Assembly (NCBI RefSeq): GCF_037055275.1
Contig: NZ_CP146343.1
Span: 2,762,501-2,826,500 of the forward strand
Source of the DNA: Pseudomonas sp. ML2-2023-3
GTDB lineage: Bacteria > Pseudomonadota > Gammaproteobacteria > Pseudomonadales > Pseudomonadaceae
Direction: 5' to 3'
Length of the DNA: 64,000 nt
Positions 2,751-9,400 of this stretch are shown here, one piece after another. Within the stretch, counting starts at the first letter, position 1, and every line of letters starts with the position of its first letter. The notes below the pieces were generated by a model. That model had not been told where the DNA came from. It saw only the letters and a list, made by a program, of their open reading frames with translations, and did not search any database. The position numbers and the translations under genes are program-made.

Positions 2751-2754
2751 TTAG
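2751..2754. repeat. TTAG spacer shared between two tandem IS copies
   Basis: The same TTAG tetranucleotide occurs immediately left of copy A (1554-1557), between the copies (2751-2754) and immediately right of copy B (3948-3951). The tandem is therefore TTAG-IS-TTAG-IS-TTAG. This is what results if a second IS inserts at the TTAG duplication left by the first, or if a dimer forms by recombination. Confidence 0.9.
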
Positions 2755-3947
2755 GGAAACTCTGAAAAAGACTTCCATCTCTGGTGAAATACACGCCTCA
2801 CACGAACTGAACGGCTGAGCCCCGATGAAACAGATGTCCTTCGCCGATGCCGAGTACGCCGGCAAACGTAAGCAGACCCGCCGCGAGCGTTTCCTGATCG
2901 AGATGGATCAGGTCGTGCCCTGGAAGGGTTTGATTGCCTTGATCGAGCCGCATTATCCGAAGGGCGACGGTGGTCGTCCGGCGTATCCGTTGATGGCCAT
3001 GCTGCGGGTTCATCTGATGCAGAACTGGTTCGGCTACAGCGATCCGGCGATGGAAGAAGCACTTTACGAGACGACGATTTTGCGCCAGTTTTCGGGGCTG
3101 CATCTGGATCGGATTCCTGACGAAACCACGATCCTTAACTTCCGACGTCTGTTGGAAAAACATGAGCTGGCCGGCGGGATTTTGCAGGTCATCAACGGCT
3201 ATCTGGGCGACCGTGGTTTGATGCTGCGCCAAGGTACGGTGGTCGATGCGACGATCATTCATGCGCCAAGTTCGACCAAGAACAAGGACGGTAAGCGCGA
3301 TCCCGAAATGCACCAGACGAAGAAAGGAAATCAGTATTTCTTCGGGATGAAAGCGCATATCGGCGTTGATGCCGAATCCGGCTTAGTGCATAGCCTGGTG
3401 GGCACGGCGGCCAATGTGGCGGACGTGACGCAGGTCGATCAGTTGCTGCATGGCGAGGAGTCTTACGTGTCTGGCGATGCCGGTTACACCGGCGTGGACA
3501 AGCGTCCTGAGCATCAGAATCGCAAGATGATCTGGTCGATTGCGGCGCGGCCCAGCAGCTACAAAAAGCACGGAAAACAGAGTTTGATCGGTAGTCTGCG
3601 GCGCAAGATCGAATACGCCAAGGCCCAAGTACGCGCCAAGGTTGAACATCCGTTTCGGGTCATCAAGCGTCAGTTTGGCTATACGAAAGTGCGCTTTCGC
3701 GGCCTGATGAAAAACACCGCGCAACAGGCCACGCTATTTGCCCTGTCGAACCTGTGGATGATGCGAAAACGGCTGCTGGCTGCGGGAGAGGTGCGCCTGT
3801 AATGCGGGAAAAGCGCCTTGAAAAGGCGTTGTTCAAGGGTGAAACGATGAGTTAAGAACAGGAAAGGTCTGATTTCTGACCAAGCCAGCGTTTTTTGAAC
3901 CTCAACCAAGGAGGGCATCAAAAATCGCTGACTACTTCAGACCTTCC
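2755..3947 (+). mobile_element. IS5-family insertion sequence, copy B (1193 bp)
   Basis: This is the second complete copy, in the same orientation, with the same ends (GGAAACTCTGAA left; cttcagaccttcc right) and the same length as copy A. It ends in TTAG at 3948-3951, after which the AT-rich gene cluster begins. I saw no base difference between the copies, so the duplication is probably very recent. Confidence 0.92.
2825..3802 (+). CDS. IS5-family transposase (copy B)
   Basis: This 325-aa DDE transposase is identical to the one encoded in copy A, with D141, D218 and E274 conserved. Having two intact copies side by side means either could supply transposase, and the inner and outer ends together could act as a composite unit. 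The 3' end lies 145 bases before the right terminal repeat. Confidence 0.95.
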   Translation: MKQMSFADAEYAGKRKQTRRERFLIEMDQVVPWKGLIALIEPHYPKGDGGRPAYPLMAMLRVHLMQNWFGYSDPAMEEALYETTILRQFSGLHLDRIPDETTILNFRRLLEKHELAGGILQVINGYLGDRGLMLRQGTVVDATIIHAPSSTKNKDGKRDPEMHQTKKGNQYFFGMKAHIGVDAESGLVHSLVGTAANVADVTQVDQLLHGEESYVSGDAGYTGVDKRPEHQNRKMIWSIAARPSSYKKHGKQSLIGSLRRKIEYAKAQVRAKVEHPFRVIKRQFGYTKVRFRGLMKNTAQQATLFALSNLWMMRKRLLAAGEVRL

Positions 3948-3951
3948 TTAG

Positions 3952-4258
3952 AGGCGACTCAGTGATAGGAGGCGATTTATGCCCAACACTCTATTAATAC
4001 TTTGATTGCTGATGAATAAGTTTTACGGATTGTTTCCTGTGTTTAAAATTAAACTAAATGTTCTTGATTAAATATTTCGTCTGAACAGTGATTTAAGTGT
4101 GTCTTAAGGCTAGGTGTGTAGTCTGGTGTAGGGCGTTTCTATATATTTATTATTGTATTAATTATTGTGCTGGGGTAGGTTTTGGTGCGCTGATTGTAAT
4201 GATTGGTTGTGGTTTGAATGTTCTATATCGATCTTCTGCTAGGTGCTCGGAGGTTGAA
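3952..4258. other. AT-rich leader region of the biosynthetic cluster
   Basis: This is the 307-bp stretch between the insertion sequences and the PLP-enzyme gene. It is strikingly AT-rich against the GC-rich genome, with runs such as ttaaaattaaactaaat and tatatatttattattgt, and it probably holds the cluster promoter. I could not assign -35/-10 boxes with confidence. It contains one very good ribosome site followed by an 8-codon frame (see the entry at 3979). An in-frame upstream extension of the PLP enzyme from 4097 is rejected because it has no ribosome site and no family resemblance. Confidence 0.5.
3979..4005 (+). other. Candidate leader peptide (8 codons)
   Basis: A consensus AGGAGG (3967-3972) lies 6 bases before an ATG that opens the frame MPNTLLIL followed by TGA. 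Three of the eight codons are leucine, spelled CTA, TTA and CTT, with an adjacent ATA isoleucine; all are rare in Pseudomonas. This could be a short regulatory leader, or simply the start of a gene broken when the island rearranged. No attenuator hairpin was identified downstream. Confidence 0.2.
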
Positions 4259-5209
4259 ATGAATTTGGCCAGTATCGGTAATACACCGCTGGTGGAGCTA
4301 ACGAAGCTTGCCTTAAACGGAGGTCGCTTGTTTGCCAAGTGTGAACATATGAATCCCTCAGGTAGTCATAAGGACAGGACGTACTTAAATATTGTCACGG
4401 TGTTGGAAGGTGAAGGGGCTATTCATAAAGGTATGACCCTTGTTGATTGCTCCACTGGGAACGGTGGTGCCGCACTTGCCTGGATAGGTAGGGAGAAAGG
4501 GTATAAGGTTAAAATATTCATGCCTGAAGGGATGACGCAGGAGCGTAAGGATCAAATACATGCTTATGGCGCAAGCTTTATTGAAACGCCGAAAGAAACT
4601 TTTTTAATCGGAGCTGCCGATGCTGCTCGGGAGTATGTCCAGCGTCATTCTGACGGGCATATGTTCTTTCTAGATCAATCCAGTACGTTGCTAAACAAAT
4701 TTGCTTGGCATGCCTGTGGTGAAGAAATTGTCAGTGCCTTGAATAGAGTCTCTATGACGCCCGATTATTTTATTTGTTCAATCGGCACGGGCGGGACGTT
4801 TTGTGGTATTGCTGAGGTGTTGAAGCGGGATTACCCAATGATCAAGACTGTCGGCATTGAGGTTGACAGTTCTGCACCGTTGTATTCCGCCAGGCGAGGG
4901 TTGGAATTCGAGCACTGTCCTCATAATTTAATGGGGTTGGGTGCAGGGGAGGTGTCCATCAATACGGTGACTGAATTAATTGATGATGTAGTGGTAGTTG
5001 CAGGCGATGCTGCTTGGGATAGGATGAAAGCGTTTGTAGTCGAAGATGAGTTTGATATTGGTCCCACCTGTGGAGCCAATCTGATAGTGTGCGAGCATCT
5101 TGCGCAATTAAATCAGGGTAAAAACATAGTTACTGTTTTTTTTGATAATGCCTGGAAGTACAAAAGTCGTTGGGGTGGAGTGTATCCTGAGTACGTGGAG
5201 ATAAAATGA
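4259..5209 (+). CDS. Cysteine-synthase-like PLP-dependent beta-replacement enzyme
   Basis: This is a fold-type II PLP enzyme of the cysteine synthase/cystathionine beta-synthase family (316 aa, a normal length). Visible hallmarks are the Schiff-base lysine K38 in NPSGSHKDR, a substrate loop STGNGG (65-70; TSGNTG in ordinary CysK) and the phosphate-binding GTGGT (176-180). A GPTCGAN loop (268-274) stands where housekeeping enzymes have SSGAA. These deviations suggest a substrate other than O-acetylserine plus sulfide, for example making a beta-substituted alanine or 2,3-diaminopropionate-type product as SbnA-like enzymes do; that is inference. The start at 4259 is chosen for the GGAGG six bases upstream. 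The stop overlaps the next start (ATGA). The gene is AT-rich compared with the flanking chromosome. Confidence 0.8.
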   Translation: MNLASIGNTPLVELTKLALNGGRLFAKCEHMNPSGSHKDRTYLNIVTVLEGEGAIHKGMTLVDCSTGNGGAALAWIGREKGYKVKIFMPEGMTQERKDQIHAYGASFIETPKETFLIGAADAAREYVQRHSDGHMFFLDQSSTLLNKFAWHACGEEIVSALNRVSMTPDYFICSIGTGGTFCGIAEVLKRDYPMIKTVGIEVDSSAPLYSARRGLEFEHCPHNLMGLGAGEVSINTVTELIDDVVVVAGDAAWDRMKAFVVEDEFDIGPTCGANLIVCEHLAQLNQGKNIVTVFFDNAWKYKSRWGGVYPEYVEIK

Positions 5210-5772
5210 TGCTCCTTAAAGAAGTATACGAAAACGCCAAAGTTGTGAGTGCGAAGGGTATTTTGATAACGGTAAATGAATTCACGGATCAATTGCCCGC
5301 CTTGCGTCCAAAGGTACTTTTGGACGTTGCTCATGCTGTGATAAGGCTGATGGATCTGAGTGTCGATAAAATCGTAACGGAAGAGGACAAAGGTGCTCCG
5401 CTGGCAACGGCGATATCCATTTTGACGGGTATTCCCTTGGCAATGGCGCGATGGTACTCATACAGCCTTGACGAAGTGAATGATGTCTGTGTGGATATTC
5501 GCTCCGAATATTATGAAGGAAAACTCTATCTCAATGGTATTGAGCCTGGCGATAAGGTAGCTATTGTTGATGATACGCTAAGTACGGGTGGTGCCGTCAT
5601 TTCACTGGTAAATGCTGTAAGGAAAAGTGGTGCTGAAGTTGTTGACGTAGTTTGTGCGGTGGAAAAGGTTCAAAATATGGGGTGTCGTCATGTGCTCGAT
5701 AAGACCGGTATTACAGTTAAAACACTGATGAAGATCACATTGATGGAAAATCGAGTCAATGTGTTGGGTTGA
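5206..5772 (+). CDS. Type I phosphoribosyltransferase family protein
   Basis: This 188-aa protein carries the PRPP-binding signature VAIVDDTLSTGGA (118-130), where the two acidic residues bind the ribose hydroxyls of PRPP. The upstream segment (TEEDKGAPLATAISILTGIP, 58-77) resembles the core of purine phosphoribosyltransferases such as adenine or hypoxanthine types. The base or nucleophile is unknown. The first ATG overlaps the preceding stop (ATGA), indicating translational coupling with the PLP enzyme; GGAG lies 5 bases before it. Such an enzyme beside a beta-replacement enzyme and an ATP-grasp ligase is not a standard housekeeping arrangement. It could activate a heterocycle, add a ribosyl phosphate to the product, or salvage a by-product. 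Confidence 0.75.
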   Translation: MMLLKEVYENAKVVSAKGILITVNEFTDQLPALRPKVLLDVAHAVIRLMDLSVDKIVTEEDKGAPLATAISILTGIPLAMARWYSYSLDEVNDVCVDIRSEYYEGKLYLNGIEPGDKVAIVDDTLSTGGAVISLVNAVRKSGAEVVDVVCAVEKVQNMGCRHVLDKTGITVKTLMKITLMENRVNVLG

Positions 5773-5806
5773 TATCGGTTAACCAGTTATCATAGTGGTA
5801 TTGGTT

Positions 5807-6733
5807 ATGCATCCAATAAAAACAGGTGTGCTGCTCGGGTTGTTATTCTGTTTTATCAGTGCTGCGTTTGATGTGTACGTCGCCTTTGTGACGCAAACTC
5901 TCGATACTCTGGTGGTGATTTTATATTGCTTTGTCTCATCCATGCTGGTGTTTCTTGGGTGTAGCCTGTGGCGGGGCAGGCACTCGTTATTAATCAAGTG
6001 TCAACAGCATTGGCCATTAATCGTAGTGGCAAACATCTCGGTGCTGTTGAATTGGGGAGGCCTGTTTTATGCATTACGCTTTCTGGAGCCGGCAGTCGTT
6101 GGGGTTGCATCAGTGGCGTGTGGGCCGGCATTAACCTTGATTGTTTCTTCATTTATAAAAGGCATGGGCAGGGCTCGTAGTGTAGAAATAATTATCGCCA
6201 TCCTTGTATTGTTGTCGGTCGCTATCATGCTTTTCAACTCATTTCTCGGGGAAAGTGGTATTTCATCCATGTCAGTCGAGCAAAGAGTTATCGGTATTAT
6301 CAGTGTCGTATTGTGTGCATTGGGCACGGTGCTTTATACGATTGTGTCCAAAAAATTATTTAAGCACCATTGGCAGGTTTACGAAATCCTGGCGGTCAGG
6401 AACGTGTTGATAGTTGTGATCTGCAGTCTATTTGTTACGTTAAGTGATGTGTCGTACAGCCTCACCGTAGAGTGGGTGTTGCCTATGTTGGTGCTGGTCG
6501 TTGTCGGTCACCTTTTGCCCATCTATCTGATTCAAAAAACCATCTTTCATCTCAGCGCAATCAATGTGGCGTTTGTGTTGCTGACGTTGCCGGTTTTTAC
6601 CCTGCTGCTTCAATTTATGGATGCGCGCGTTTCATTTTCGATGCCTAGCATTGCAGCGGTTGGGATTATCGTGACGCTCTTGGCTTCGCTGACGCTGTTC
6701 AATCGACAGGCAAACAATCGAGGTCTGAAATGA
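5807..6733 (+). CDS. DMT-superfamily (EamA-type) exporter
   Basis: This is a polytopic inner-membrane protein of 308 aa with about ten hydrophobic segments in two EamA-like halves, the usual build of drug/metabolite exporters. The ATG at 5807 (MHPIKTGVLLGL) is preferred; a GTG at 5795 in the same frame is possible, and neither has a clear ribosome site. The gene begins 34 bases after the phosphoribosyltransferase and its stop overlaps the start of the ATP-grasp gene (ATGA). By context it probably exports the cluster's product or protects the producer. The substrate cannot be read from sequence. Confidence 0.8.
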   Translation: MHPIKTGVLLGLLFCFISAAFDVYVAFVTQTLDTLVVILYCFVSSMLVFLGCSLWRGRHSLLIKCQQHWPLIVVANISVLLNWGGLFYALRFLEPAVVGVASVACGPALTLIVSSFIKGMGRARSVEIIIAILVLLSVAIMLFNSFLGESGISSMSVEQRVIGIISVVLCALGTVLYTIVSKKLFKHHWQVYEILAVRNVLIVVICSLFVTLSDVSYSLTVEWVLPMLVLVVVGHLLPIYLIQKTIFHLSAINVAFVLLTLPVFTLLLQFMDARVSFSMPSIAAVGIIVTLLASLTLFNRQANNRGLK

Positions 6734-7980
6734 TCAGGGTCGTTGTGGTTGACGGTTTTTCTTCGGGTAAATTGCTGGCCAGAGAACTCCATGCGCAGGG
6801 TTGTCTTTTATTCCATATGGCGTCCAGCTCTACCATTGATGATTATTACTATGCAGGTTTTGAGTTTGGTATTTACCATGCGTTCATGACTCACGCGGAC
6901 AATGGCTCCACACTGTTGGCGATAAAGGATTTTGCCCCCGATTACATTGTCGCGGGGGCTGAAAGCGGGGTGCTGCTGGCCGACCAGTTGAATGAGCAGT
7001 TGGGGCTTGAATACACCAATGACTTTTCCAGGAGCCTGGCGCGCAGAAACAAGTTTCAGATGATCCAGTGCATTACCGATGCTGGTTTGCCCGCTCCAGC
7101 CCAGTGTGCGGTTGATACATGGAATGCGGGAAGAGACTGGGTTCAGGCTCGGGGCACGTTCCCGGTCGTGATCAAGCCCCTTGAGAGCGCAGGGGCGGAC
7201 GGGGTTTTTATTTGCCATGACCTCGCCGCTTGCGAACGTGCATTCACCCAACTGCTGGGCACGCGCAACAAGCTCAATATCGAGAACAGCCAAGTATTGT
7301 TTCAGGAGTACCTGGCGGGCACCGAGTATGTGATCAATATGGTGTCCCAAGGCGGGCATCAGTTAATCACTGAGGTGGTGAGGTACACCAAACGGGTGCT
7401 GGAGACCGGCAGCATTGTGTATGACATCGACCAACTGCTCGACGCCACGGTAGCGCCCTATGCAGAGCTCGTGGCCTACACCCGCAAGGTAGTGACGAGC
7501 CTCGGTATTCTCAATGGGCCCAGTCATGCTGAAGTCATGTACACCTCAGAAGGACCGAAACTGGTTGAAATTGCCGCCCGTACAGACGGGATCCTCAGAA
7601 CTGGAGTCAGTGCACAAACCACCCGCATGGGGCAGATCAATGCGTTCGCGCTGTCGATCACCCGTCCCCTTGAATTTGAACGGCTGCTGATGTGTGGCAC
7701 TGACTATGTACGGTTCAAGCACACCTACAATGTCAGCCTGATCAATCGTTCAGAAGGCCTGTTTACCAACGAAGCATTTATGGAAAAGTTGTCCGGACTG
7801 GCGTCGTTTTACGAGGTGGTTTTCTACGTCGTTAATGGACAGCACATTGCGAGTACAAAGGATGTGTTCAGCCAGCCGGGTACTGTGTATCTGGTTCATC
7901 CCGACCTCAACCAGATCGAGGTGGATTACGCCCGTATTCGCGAAATGGAGCAGGCCGGGATTTATTTGCAGAGCTCATAA
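6730..7980 (+). CDS. ATP-grasp ligase (amino acid/peptide ligase-like)
   Basis: This 416-aa protein has an N-terminal Rossmann-like domain, a central ATP-grasp fold and a C-terminal extension, similar in build to L-amino acid ligases. Visible ATP-grasp features are PVVIKPLESAGADGVF with K149, the adenine-hinge segment QEY (192-194), and metal-binding acidic residues E268 (HAEVMY) and E280 (VEIAAR). These enzymes form an acyl-phosphate and couple it to an amine, so the likely reaction is dipeptide or amide formation. Amino acid specificity cannot be told. The start overlaps the exporter stop (ATGA). The gene is less AT-rich than its three partners. It ends 4 bases before the convergent efflux operon, with no terminator visible. 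Confidence 0.82.
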   Translation: MIRVVVVDGFSSGKLLARELHAQGCLLFHMASSSTIDDYYYAGFEFGIYHAFMTHADNGSTLLAIKDFAPDYIVAGAESGVLLADQLNEQLGLEYTNDFSRSLARRNKFQMIQCITDAGLPAPAQCAVDTWNAGRDWVQARGTFPVVIKPLESAGADGVFICHDLAACERAFTQLLGTRNKLNIENSQVLFQEYLAGTEYVINMVSQGGHQLITEVVRYTKRVLETGSIVYDIDQLLDATVAPYAELVAYTRKVVTSLGILNGPSHAEVMYTSEGPKLVEIAARTDGILRTGVSAQTTRMGQINAFALSITRPLEFERLLMCGTDYVRFKHTYNVSLINRSEGLFTNEAFMEKLSGLASFYEVVFYVVNGQHIASTKDVFSQPGTVYLVHPDLNQIEVDYARIREMEQAGIYLQSS

Positions 7981-7984
7981 CGGG

Positions 7985-9400
7985 TTAATGATCGTTCCAA
8001 CCACCCCCCAACGCTGTCAACAATCCCACGCTGGCCTGCAACTGCCGGGTGCGAAGCGACTGCACCTGGCGCTGGGCTTGTAGCGCTGCCGTTTGTGCCG
8101 TCACCACATCCAGATAACTCACCGCCCCGGCCTCATAGCTGTTGGTGGCAATCACCTGGGTGTGTTTGGCGGCATTTGCTGCGGCTTGCTCGTCGAGGCT
8201 TTCCTGTTGCAAGTCGCGCAGTTGGGCAAGGTTGTCTTCGACTTCGCGTACCGCGTGCAGCACTTGCCCCCGGTAGTGGGCCGATGCTTCTTCAAATTCG
8301 GCCCTGGCCCGGCGCTCCTGGCCCTCGAGCCTGCCACCGTCAAAGACAGGCAGGCTGATCAGCGGCCCCAAGGCCCAGAAACGGTTACTGGCAGCCAGCA
8401 AATTGCCGCTGCCCTGGGTTTGCCCGCCCAGCAGGCCGGTCAAACTGAAGTCCGGATACCAGGCCGCTTTTGCCACGCCGATCGCCGCATTGGCGGCAAA
8501 CACCCGGCGCTCCGCAGCGGCAATATCAGGGCGGCGTTGCAGCAGGGTACTTGGCAGGGTTCGCGGCTGATCAGGCAGGTTCAGCATCTGCTCTCTGGCC
8601 GCCAGCTGGAAGTTGCTGGCGGGTTCGCCCATCAGTTCACCAATAGCGTGTTCGGTCAGGTTGCGCTGGGCACGGATGTCGTCCAGTTGGGCCTCGGCTT
8701 CGGCCAGCTGGCTCTGGGCGCGGGTAAGGTCCAGCTCGGAGGCTATTTGCCCCTGATATCGGGTACGGGTCAGTTGCAGGGCCTGGCTGTAATCATCCAG
8801 TGAGCTGGACAGGATGCGTCGCTGGGCGTCCAGTCCGTCAAGTTGAACATACAGGCTGGTCAGCTGACGCTGCAGGCTTAAACGGGCGACAGCCAGATCA
8901 TCCGCCGAGGCTTGTGCCTGGGCATCGCCAGCAACCACCTGATTGCGGATTTTCCCCCACAGGTCGAGGTCGAAATTCAACGCGAATCCTGCAGTGTTGC
9001 TGTTATAGACCGACGGTTGAGTCGTGCCGCGCAAGGGGCGGTTGTCCGATTGACGTTGGCGCAGCGGTTGCCCGCTGGCTGTTATTTGCGGGAAGAGTCC
9101 GGCGTGTAACTGGCTGGCATAAGCCTGCGCTGCATCGAAGTGGGCCAGCGCCGCTGCCAGGTCAGGGTTGGCCTTGAGCAACTGCTGTTGCAGGCTGTTC
9201 AGGTGCTCATCCTGATACACCCGCCACCACTGCGGTGACAGCTGGTCGGCAGGTTGGGCGCTGTGCCACGGGCCGTCACTGCTTTGCTCGCGGTAGTGCG
9301 CGGGCACGTCCAGCGTCGGGGTGTTGTAGGTGGGCGCCAGGGAGCAGCCCTGCAACGCCAGGGCCAGCAGCAGGGCCGCGCGCTTAAGCCTTGGTTGCAT
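7985..9400 (-). CDS. RND efflux outer-membrane factor lipoprotein (NodT/OprM family)
   Basis: This is the outer-membrane channel of a tripartite efflux pump (471 aa). The start at 9400 has a good AGGAG upstream and gives a lipoprotein signal with lipobox LALQGC, so the mature protein is anchored by an acylated cysteine. Two OEP repeat halves are present with the typical motifs RRPDI and AAWYPDFSLTG near the middle and DGGRLEGQ later. It is the last gene of an operon with the adaptor, whose stop it overlaps by 17 bases, and the pump upstream. An in-frame upstream extension to 9451 has no signal peptide at its start and is rejected. Confidence 0.9.
   Translation of the reverse strand: MQPRLKRAALLLALALQGCSLAPTYNTPTLDVPAHYREQSSDGPWHSAQPADQLSPQWWRVYQDEHLNSLQQQLLKANPDLAAALAHFDAAQAYASQLHAGLFPQITASGQPLRQRQSDNRPLRGTTQPSVYNSNTAGFALNFDLDLWGKIRNQVVAGDAQAQASADDLAVARLSLQRQLTSLYVQLDGLDAQRRILSSSLDDYSQALQLTRTRYQGQIASELDLTRAQSQLAEAEAQLDDIRAQRNLTEHAIGELMGEPASNFQLAAREQMLNLPDQPRTLPSTLLQRRPDIAAAERRVFAANAAIGVAKAAWYPDFSLTGLLGGQTQGSGNLLAASNRFWALGPLISLPVFDGGRLEGQERRARAEFEEASAHYRGQVLHAVREVEDNLAQLRDLQQESLDEQAAANAAKHTQVIATNSYEAGAVSYLDVVTAQTAALQAQRQVQSLRTRQLQASVGLLTALGGGWNDH

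Follow-up and report, generated by a model that had tools for sequence, protein, structure and literature searches.

Plant nucleobase- and azole-alanine synthases, which give willardiine, lupinic acid and pyrazolylalanine, are cysteine-synthase-like enzymes that attach a ring nitrogen to an activated serine at its beta-carbon, and to our knowledge they have no phosphoribosyltransferase (PRT), ligase or exporter as partner. In Pseudomonas syringae, mangotoxin and tabtoxin are small amino-acid compounds that, in the available portions of the published texts, are built by free-standing ATP-grasp ligases (PMC13185094, PMC13338154). Here we analyzed a stretch of 64,000 nucleotides from Pseudomonas sp. 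ML2-2023-3 (contig NZ_CP146343.1, positions 2,762,501 to 2,826,500; hereafter the window), in which a 3.7 kb cluster within a genome of 5.4 Mb brings together a pyridoxal phosphate (PLP) enzyme, a PRT, an EamA exporter and an ATP-grasp ligase. The cluster probably makes an unusual amino-acid compound and exports the product. A full-text literature search, judged by titles and abstract openings among the matches listed and with subscription papers mostly outside it, found no description of the four-gene set and no characterised match, in agreement with the sequence-only reading made earlier of this DNA, which knew of no described pathway with this exact set. The features of the locus are as follows.

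3948..4258, forward strand: AT-rich leader ahead of the PLP gene
4259..5209, forward strand: PLP enzyme, cysteine-synthase-like, fold type II, 316 residues (PF00291; a subfamily of its own, with loop CSTGNGG)
5206..5772, forward strand: type I PRT, 188 residues (PF00156; intact phosphoribosyl pyrophosphate (PRPP) motif DDTLSTGG)
5807..6733, forward strand, with an alternative GTG start at 5795: exporter of the EamA/drug-metabolite transporter (DMT) family (PF00892)
6730..7980, forward strand: ATP-grasp ligase of the L-amino-acid-ligase type, 416 residues (PF13535)

Open reading frames (ORFs) and Pfam matches, all four of which exceed their cut-offs, confirm the same-strand series of PLP enzyme, PRT, EamA and ATP-grasp genes at 4259-7980 that had been read from the sequence, together with its two ATGA-type overlaps, each of 4 bases, between the PLP and PRT genes and between the EamA and ligase genes. 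The PLP frame is open from 4097, with ATG 4259 as the start that matches relatives in alignment, and the EamA gene begins either at GTG 5795, 22 bases beyond the end of the PRT gene, or at ATG 5807, the latter chosen by eye. The proposed AT-richness of at least the first three genes is also present: GC content is 0.46, 0.44 and 0.46 for the PLP, PRT and EamA genes versus 0.60 for the 7.4 kb flank, with the ligase gene milder at 0.53, as that reading had hedged.

Conservation and spread of the four genes

Comparison across genomes supports a conserved, patchily distributed operon that has probably spread horizontally. Contigs were scanned with an alignment of the ligase, and the best 80 of 123 confirmed stretches gave 77 distinct loci, 31 of which (L002-L031 and L074) encode a ligase at least 45% identical to that of the window and constitute the close-ligase set. 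Inspection of this set reveals all four genes in the window's order at 20 of the 31 loci, 19 of them on one contig and one, Pantoea L030, across two contigs. By record title these loci belong to Pseudomonas, Yersinia, Photorhabdus, Vibrio, Pantoea and, with a single record, Martelella, a patchy representation among insect-, fish- and plant-associated bacteria. Of the remaining loci, nine have only EamA and ligase, and in two the ligase has no EamA and follows a FetAB-like ATP-binding cassette (ABC) pair, such that EamA adjoins the ligase in 29/31 loci. At E 1e-8, neither PLP enzyme nor PRT was found in the fetched DNA of the other 46 loci, whose ligases are 30-38% identical. The tabulation of co-occurrence that the sequence-only reading had proposed does not make the four genes rare companions where the ligase is close (20/31), but the two-gene form is common too.

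Pantoea L030 and Vibrio L031 each carry one extra gene, YggS-like, between PRT and EamA. The outer neighbours vary: Photorhabdus and P. karstica have dipeptide ABC transporters there, Yersinia similis has an iron-siderophore permease and Y. ruckeri a transposase. Because the neighbours differ between genera, the conserved operon ends at the ligase. Counting the window's own genome, a ligase of at least 57% identity is present in 9 of 398 genomes of the genus Pseudomonas and a PRT of at least 60% identity in 3 of 298 genomes of the family. At E 1e-25 the PRT occurs in 1 of 369 genomes of the class, the window's own, and in 1 of 275 from Pantoea's order and 1 of 118 from the genus Vibrio, both already-known loci, while the PLP enzyme at E 1e-90 occurs in 1 of 398 genomes of the phylum, again its own. 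Relatives of the PLP enzyme, PRT or ligase carry the source names Dickeya, Musicola, Erwinia, Salmonella, Acinetobacter, Enterobacter, Edwardsiella, Marinomonas, Ruminiclostridium, Streptomyces and Sorangium. Plasmid searches with the whole cluster DNA and with the PLP enzyme gave no match. This scattered distribution agrees with an accessory function passed from genome to genome.

The Martelella locus (L025) comes from a record titled Martelella alba BGMRC 2031, that is, named as an alphaproteobacterium, and its four genes group with those of Yersinia similis, Vibrio and Erwiniaceae; it represents either a recent transfer or a misnamed record.

Pairing of the PLP enzyme and PRT, and the enzyme families

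The PLP enzyme and PRT are both present or both missing in 31/31 close-ligase loci. Among the 120 PLP homologues listed out of 7176 above threshold, 11 are fused to a PRT, which stands N-terminal, opposite to the operon order. All 11 fusions keep the PLP signatures, and the 9 full-length ones keep the PRT signatures NE[FL]xDQxPALRP, EEDKG and ARWYxY; Pfam domains were confirmed on 5. Trees built from PLP enzyme plus PRT and from EamA plus ligase for 19 loci (window counted, L018 dropped by a script filter) have 15 of 16 splits in common, where 2000 relabellings gave 0.22 on average and at most 3, and the sole discordant split concerns the position of Y. ruckeri. Pairing, fusions and congruent trees make it very probable that the PLP enzyme and PRT take part in a single reaction sequence, and indicate that the four genes have stayed together. 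Searches for the gene neighbourhoods of PRT-PLP fusions and of actinobacterial PRTs found none in 41 genomes with distant ligases and none in 85 of the order of Nocardiopsis L068 (G1788), an empty result that is uninformative.

The structure model of the PLP enzyme (predicted local distance difference test, pLDDT, 93.7) has CysK as its closest solved fold, with a template-modelling (TM) score of 0.88. The Schiff-base lysine K38 is invariant in the homologue alignment, and the altered substrate loop that had been read from the sequence is borne out as CSTGNGG where CysK has PTSGNTG; among the matches listed, STGNGG recurs in 105 of 109 separate homologues and in 11/11 PRT-fused ones. The enzyme falls below the cut-off in all of the 25 NCBIfam models among the matches listed, including CysK (194 vs 350.95 bits), CysM (155.3 vs 394.2), CysKM (200.9 vs 344.15) and SbnA (TIGR03945; 118.4 vs 349.95).

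For the PRT, whose PRPP motif is intact, the structure model (pLDDT 90.6) is closest to Bacillus subtilis xanthine phosphoribosyltransferase (XPRT), including its complex with guanosine monophosphate, at TM 0.80-0.83, with adenine phosphoribosyltransferases (APRTs) just behind. In an alignment with four XPRT-like rows (L084, L097, L148 and L149; 6 of 10 candidates were wrong-frame ORFs and were ignored), E153-K154 lines up with EK in XPRT, and D28 occupies the column of the XPRT FLN asparagine. We take the aligned lysine and asparagine to be the residues through which XPRT binds its base; a literature search for XPRT residues found none. Modelled fold and alignment give a weak hint that the acceptor may be a purine-like, perhaps 6-oxopurine-like, ring.

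The ligase matches PF13535 with 45.4 bits against a cut-off of 27 and passes NF005543 PRK07206 (468.6 vs 302 bits), a model that bears the name 'hypothetical protein'. Its best PDB match is the L-amino acid ligase 30vh (residues 4-409, E 8e-57), and the DdaF dapdiamide synthase model NF041595 stays out of reach at 225.5 bits against 840. By these similarities it is predicted to be an L-amino-acid ligase of known kind and not DdaF, and the earlier assignment to the ATP-grasp ligases is upheld by its grouping with L-amino-acid ligases.

Distant PRT relatives have other company. On a Rhizobium phaseoli plasmid (L146, 4572-12586) a relative of 41% identity follows a phosphoribosylanthranilate isomerase domain in one fused protein, and its neighbours, namely a TrpD-like PRT, an isochorismatase, a luciferase-like monooxygenase, UbiD and a UbiX-like protein, compose an unusual anthranilate-type cluster. 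An apparently decayed fragment of this Rhizobium-type PRT lies in a Pseudomonas genome (G254; L111, 7970-8317), with 49% identity to the window PRT over 68 residues. On a Haloferax larsenii plasmid (L145, 5342-10983) a PRT with the subfamily signatures and 44% identity is flanked by UbiA prenyltransferases and a geranylgeranyl reductase, with no PLP enzyme among 17 annotated neighbours. Six plasmid records in all, from haloarchaea and one Rhizobium, match the PRT, none above 45% identity, and a scan of viral contigs found no PRT relatives.

Separability of the two halves and the proposed pathway

The PLP-PRT pair is a separable unit, and the four genes are not one obligatory line. On a ligase tree of 33 rows the four-gene state requires 5 changes, at least 3 of them forced by well-supported branches (L113 was scored as four-gene though its fetched piece starts inside PRT, and L030 likewise though split over contigs); taken with the congruent trees, these changes speak for PLP-PRT having been lost repeatedly. 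The ligase is under purifying selection even without PLP-PRT, with ratios of nonsynonymous to synonymous substitution rates of 0.09-0.20 in five PLP-PRT-less pairs and 0.13-0.28 in four-gene pairs, the pairs being hand-chosen. Pseudomonas sp. NKUCC02_KPG (L002) lacks PLP-PRT and matches the window genome at 99.7% over 6.7 kb upstream and at 99.56% over 11.2 kb from the EamA start. The 5' two thirds of the window's leader (3948-4156) also precede the L002 operon (L002 7773-7981) at 80% identity, which favours recombinational exchange over derivation of L002 from the window's allele by a simple deletion.

In 14/14 P. fluorescens-type loci the motif CCTA[ATG]CC[GAC]TT[TC][GAT]G[CT][CT]AG precedes the first gene by 76-88 bases, with a distance of 44 in L007, where the script may have taken too early a start. 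The gene that follows is the PLP gene in 5 loci, EamA in 7 and the ligase in 2. The motif occurs once per locus and zero times in 1.21 Mb of other loci; because the pattern was derived from the same loci, its uniqueness is informative and its presence is not, and because it is missing in the window, L002, L003, L004, L005 and L020, it is not general. In 4 of 5 Photorhabdus loci a second EamA lies upstream, behind a PLP or PRT remnant, and in L019 and L027 the EamA-less ligase stands behind the FetAB-like pair as though one exporter had displaced another. L019, a second copy in P. kairouanensis, has a ligase that keeps 110 of the 122 residues otherwise invariant and has lost 12; decay or change of this copy is possible. 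A YggS-like remnant survives at L029, a two-gene locus of Erwinia. YggS-like genes reach the TIGR00044 cut-off in L031 and L109; the protein belongs to a PLP-binding family, and our guess is that it might guard against a PLP-trapping product.

We tentatively propose, at somewhat less than an even chance, that the operon serves an exported specialised metabolite, with PLP-PRT, ligase and EamA acting in that order in one pathway. Gene order, PLP-PRT pairing and fusion, congruent trees, the XPRT-like fold, the CysK fold with its changed loop, low GC content and patchiness all lead to this proposal. An activated serine would receive a nucleophile at its beta-carbon through the PLP enzyme, and the PRT would use PRPP on that same purine-like ring or on the corresponding ribotide. 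The two enzymes would act on one intermediate and yield an alanine whose side group is purine-like or ribosylated. The ligase would then couple the modified alanine, or a different amino acid at loci lacking PLP-PRT, to a second amino acid, and EamA would export the product, perhaps an antimetabolite. We infer the beta-substitution, ribosylation, ligation and export, and with them the substrates, the order of the two steps, the ligation partner and the biological role. A more specific version, which we consider doubtful, would make the PLP enzyme and PRT a bacterial nucleobase-amino-acid synthase giving a purinyl-alanine or its ribotide, with the PRT drawing a purine-like base from the nucleotide pool or returning it there; the ligase would make an exported dipeptide as a delivery form of the base analogue, and the fusions would be single-protein versions of the synthase.

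Several observations weigh against a single pathway. PLP-PRT is missing from 11/31 loci that retain the ligase, and no other place in the 10 genomes behind them has a close PRT, the best match being 27% identical (E 5.5e-9). Ten of these 11 ligases keep 119-122 of the 122 residues that are invariant in 22 four-gene rows, which suggests that the ligase is independent of the PLP-PRT product. Conversely, in two other Pseudomonadaceae genera (L109 and L110) PLP-PRT stands with a YggS-like gene and an unrelated EamA, and no ligase is present near it in the 12 and 18 kb read. The conserved set is also without a resistance or regulatory gene, the PRT passes an ordinary adenine phosphoribosyltransferase model (NF009211 PRK12560, 253.6 vs 188 bits), and its identity to XPRT is so low, about 25%, that its substrate is a hint. 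That is to say, the single four-gene pathway of the sequence-only reading stands as a conserved operon (20/31) and does not stand as an obligatory line, with PLP-PRT absent from 11/31 loci and ligase-less in two genomes. A ligase without PLP-PRT beside it has to take a different amino acid, and the case for two independent modules under one promoter rests chiefly on that point. EamA and ligase would then make and export a dipeptide from ordinary amino acids, and PLP enzyme and PRT would form a separate product. The halves do occur apart (EamA plus ligase or ligase alone at 11/31; PLP-PRT with YggS-like and other EamA genes in L109 and L110), the invariant ligase residues are the same in both forms, and one motif lies ahead of whichever gene is first in 14/14 loci. 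Against this stand the 15/16 splits common to the halves and their tight packing into a single operon in what record titles give as six genera; we judge two modules rather unlikely, though a serious contender.

The remaining alternatives assign other functions to the same genes. Some metallophore exporters are EamA proteins, and a small metal-binding compound made from a beta-substituted alanine could leave the cell by this route: in Yersinia similis L028 the genes next after the operon encode a FecCD-type permease and a binding protein of the iron-siderophore type, and the FetAB-like pair adjoins the operon in L006, L007, L019, L027 and L074. Siderophore genes are nevertheless found in 1 of 8 partly annotated downstream neighbourhoods, the others holding dipeptide transporters, dehydrogenases or a transposase, the FetA and FetB cut-offs are not reached, and no receptor gene is conserved, so a metallophore is improbable. 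It is very improbable, and already disfavoured, that ordinary purine salvage and cysteine synthesis genes are chance neighbours of the ligase; this would account for the NCBIfam name of the PRT and the source name cysteine synthase of the PLP enzyme, but not for an order kept in six genera, congruent trees, PRT-PLP fusions, patchiness and the additional generic PRTs that these genomes encode. A dapdiamide-like route, with an SbnA-like enzyme making 2,3-diaminopropionate for a DdaF-like ligase, is scarcely credible: the DdaF model matches along the length of the ligase, and the families matching the PLP enzyme include SbnA, but the scores lie far below cut-off (225.5 vs 840 and 118.4 vs 349.95 bits), and clustering and family scans of chosen neighbours, in which no SbnB model was used, revealed no further conserved gene and with it no SbnB-like partner.

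In L109, LuxR-like and LuxI-like genes (7016-8753) lie 1-3 kb downstream of the PLP-PRT-YggS-EamA operon, and quorum-sensing control of that operon is possible.

Surroundings of the cluster and comparison with known systems

A 1.2 kb element, which we take by eye to be transposase-bearing, lies in two exact head-to-tail copies (1554-2754 and 2751-3951) 310 bases upstream of the PLP gene, and L002 has no copy at the corresponding site. With ORF 1-1053, presumably reverse-transcriptase-like, these tandem copies confirm the mobile elements that had been placed beside the cluster, their types being judged by eye. Downstream are ORFs that appear by eye to encode efflux proteins of the resistance-nodulation-division (RND) type. 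The sole Rfam match of the scan, a TwoAYGGAY RNA at 1232-1296 on the reverse strand (51.5 bits vs a cut-off of 43), lies outside the cluster; the matching stretch recurs in L002 and L020 at about the same place and is possibly a dispersed repeat rather than a genuine RNA of that family.

At 3.7 kb, the gene set behind this probable unknown metabolite is easily cloned and extends through pseudomonads, several enterobacteria and vibrios. The chemistry of the PRT-PLP pair is directly assayable, and strains that differ by PLP-PRT in otherwise 99.6-99.7% identical DNA offer a natural comparison.

Like CysK/CysM and beta-cyanoalanine synthase, the PLP enzyme is of fold type II, with its lysine in SHKDR and a GTGGT phosphate loop. 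It differs from CysK/CysM in a carboxylate loop CSTGNGG rather than PTSGNTG, a C-terminal WKYxSRW motif, a PRT partner and scores below cut-off. With the plant nucleobase- and azole-alanine synthases it shares the cysteine-synthase-like type, a likeness by analogy only. The PRT resembles B. subtilis XPRT and PRK12560 in its type I fold, PRPP motif and the E-K pair aligned with XPRT, and departs from XPRT and APRT in its own signatures (NEFTDQLPALRP, EEDKG, ARWY and SEYxxGxLYLNG), its approximately 25% identity to XPRT and the PLP enzyme adjoining or fused to it. The ligase is similar over its full length to L-amino-acid ligases (PRK07206, DdaF, 30vh), with the ATP-grasp residues and a small cluster with an exporter, and is unlike DdaF in scoring far under that cut-off, in passing only a 'hypothetical protein' model and in having the PLP-PRT unit alongside. 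The mangotoxin text, in its available portion, makes no mention of phosphoribosyl or cysteine synthase. As far as the available parts of the sources extend, the window cluster and the mangotoxin and tabtoxin clusters alike have a free-standing ATP-grasp ligase in pseudomonads, while their tailoring enzymes differ (PMC13185094, PMC13338154). A small cluster built around an ATP-grasp amino-acid ligase is of a known kind, and the PRT-PLP unit within it appears undescribed.

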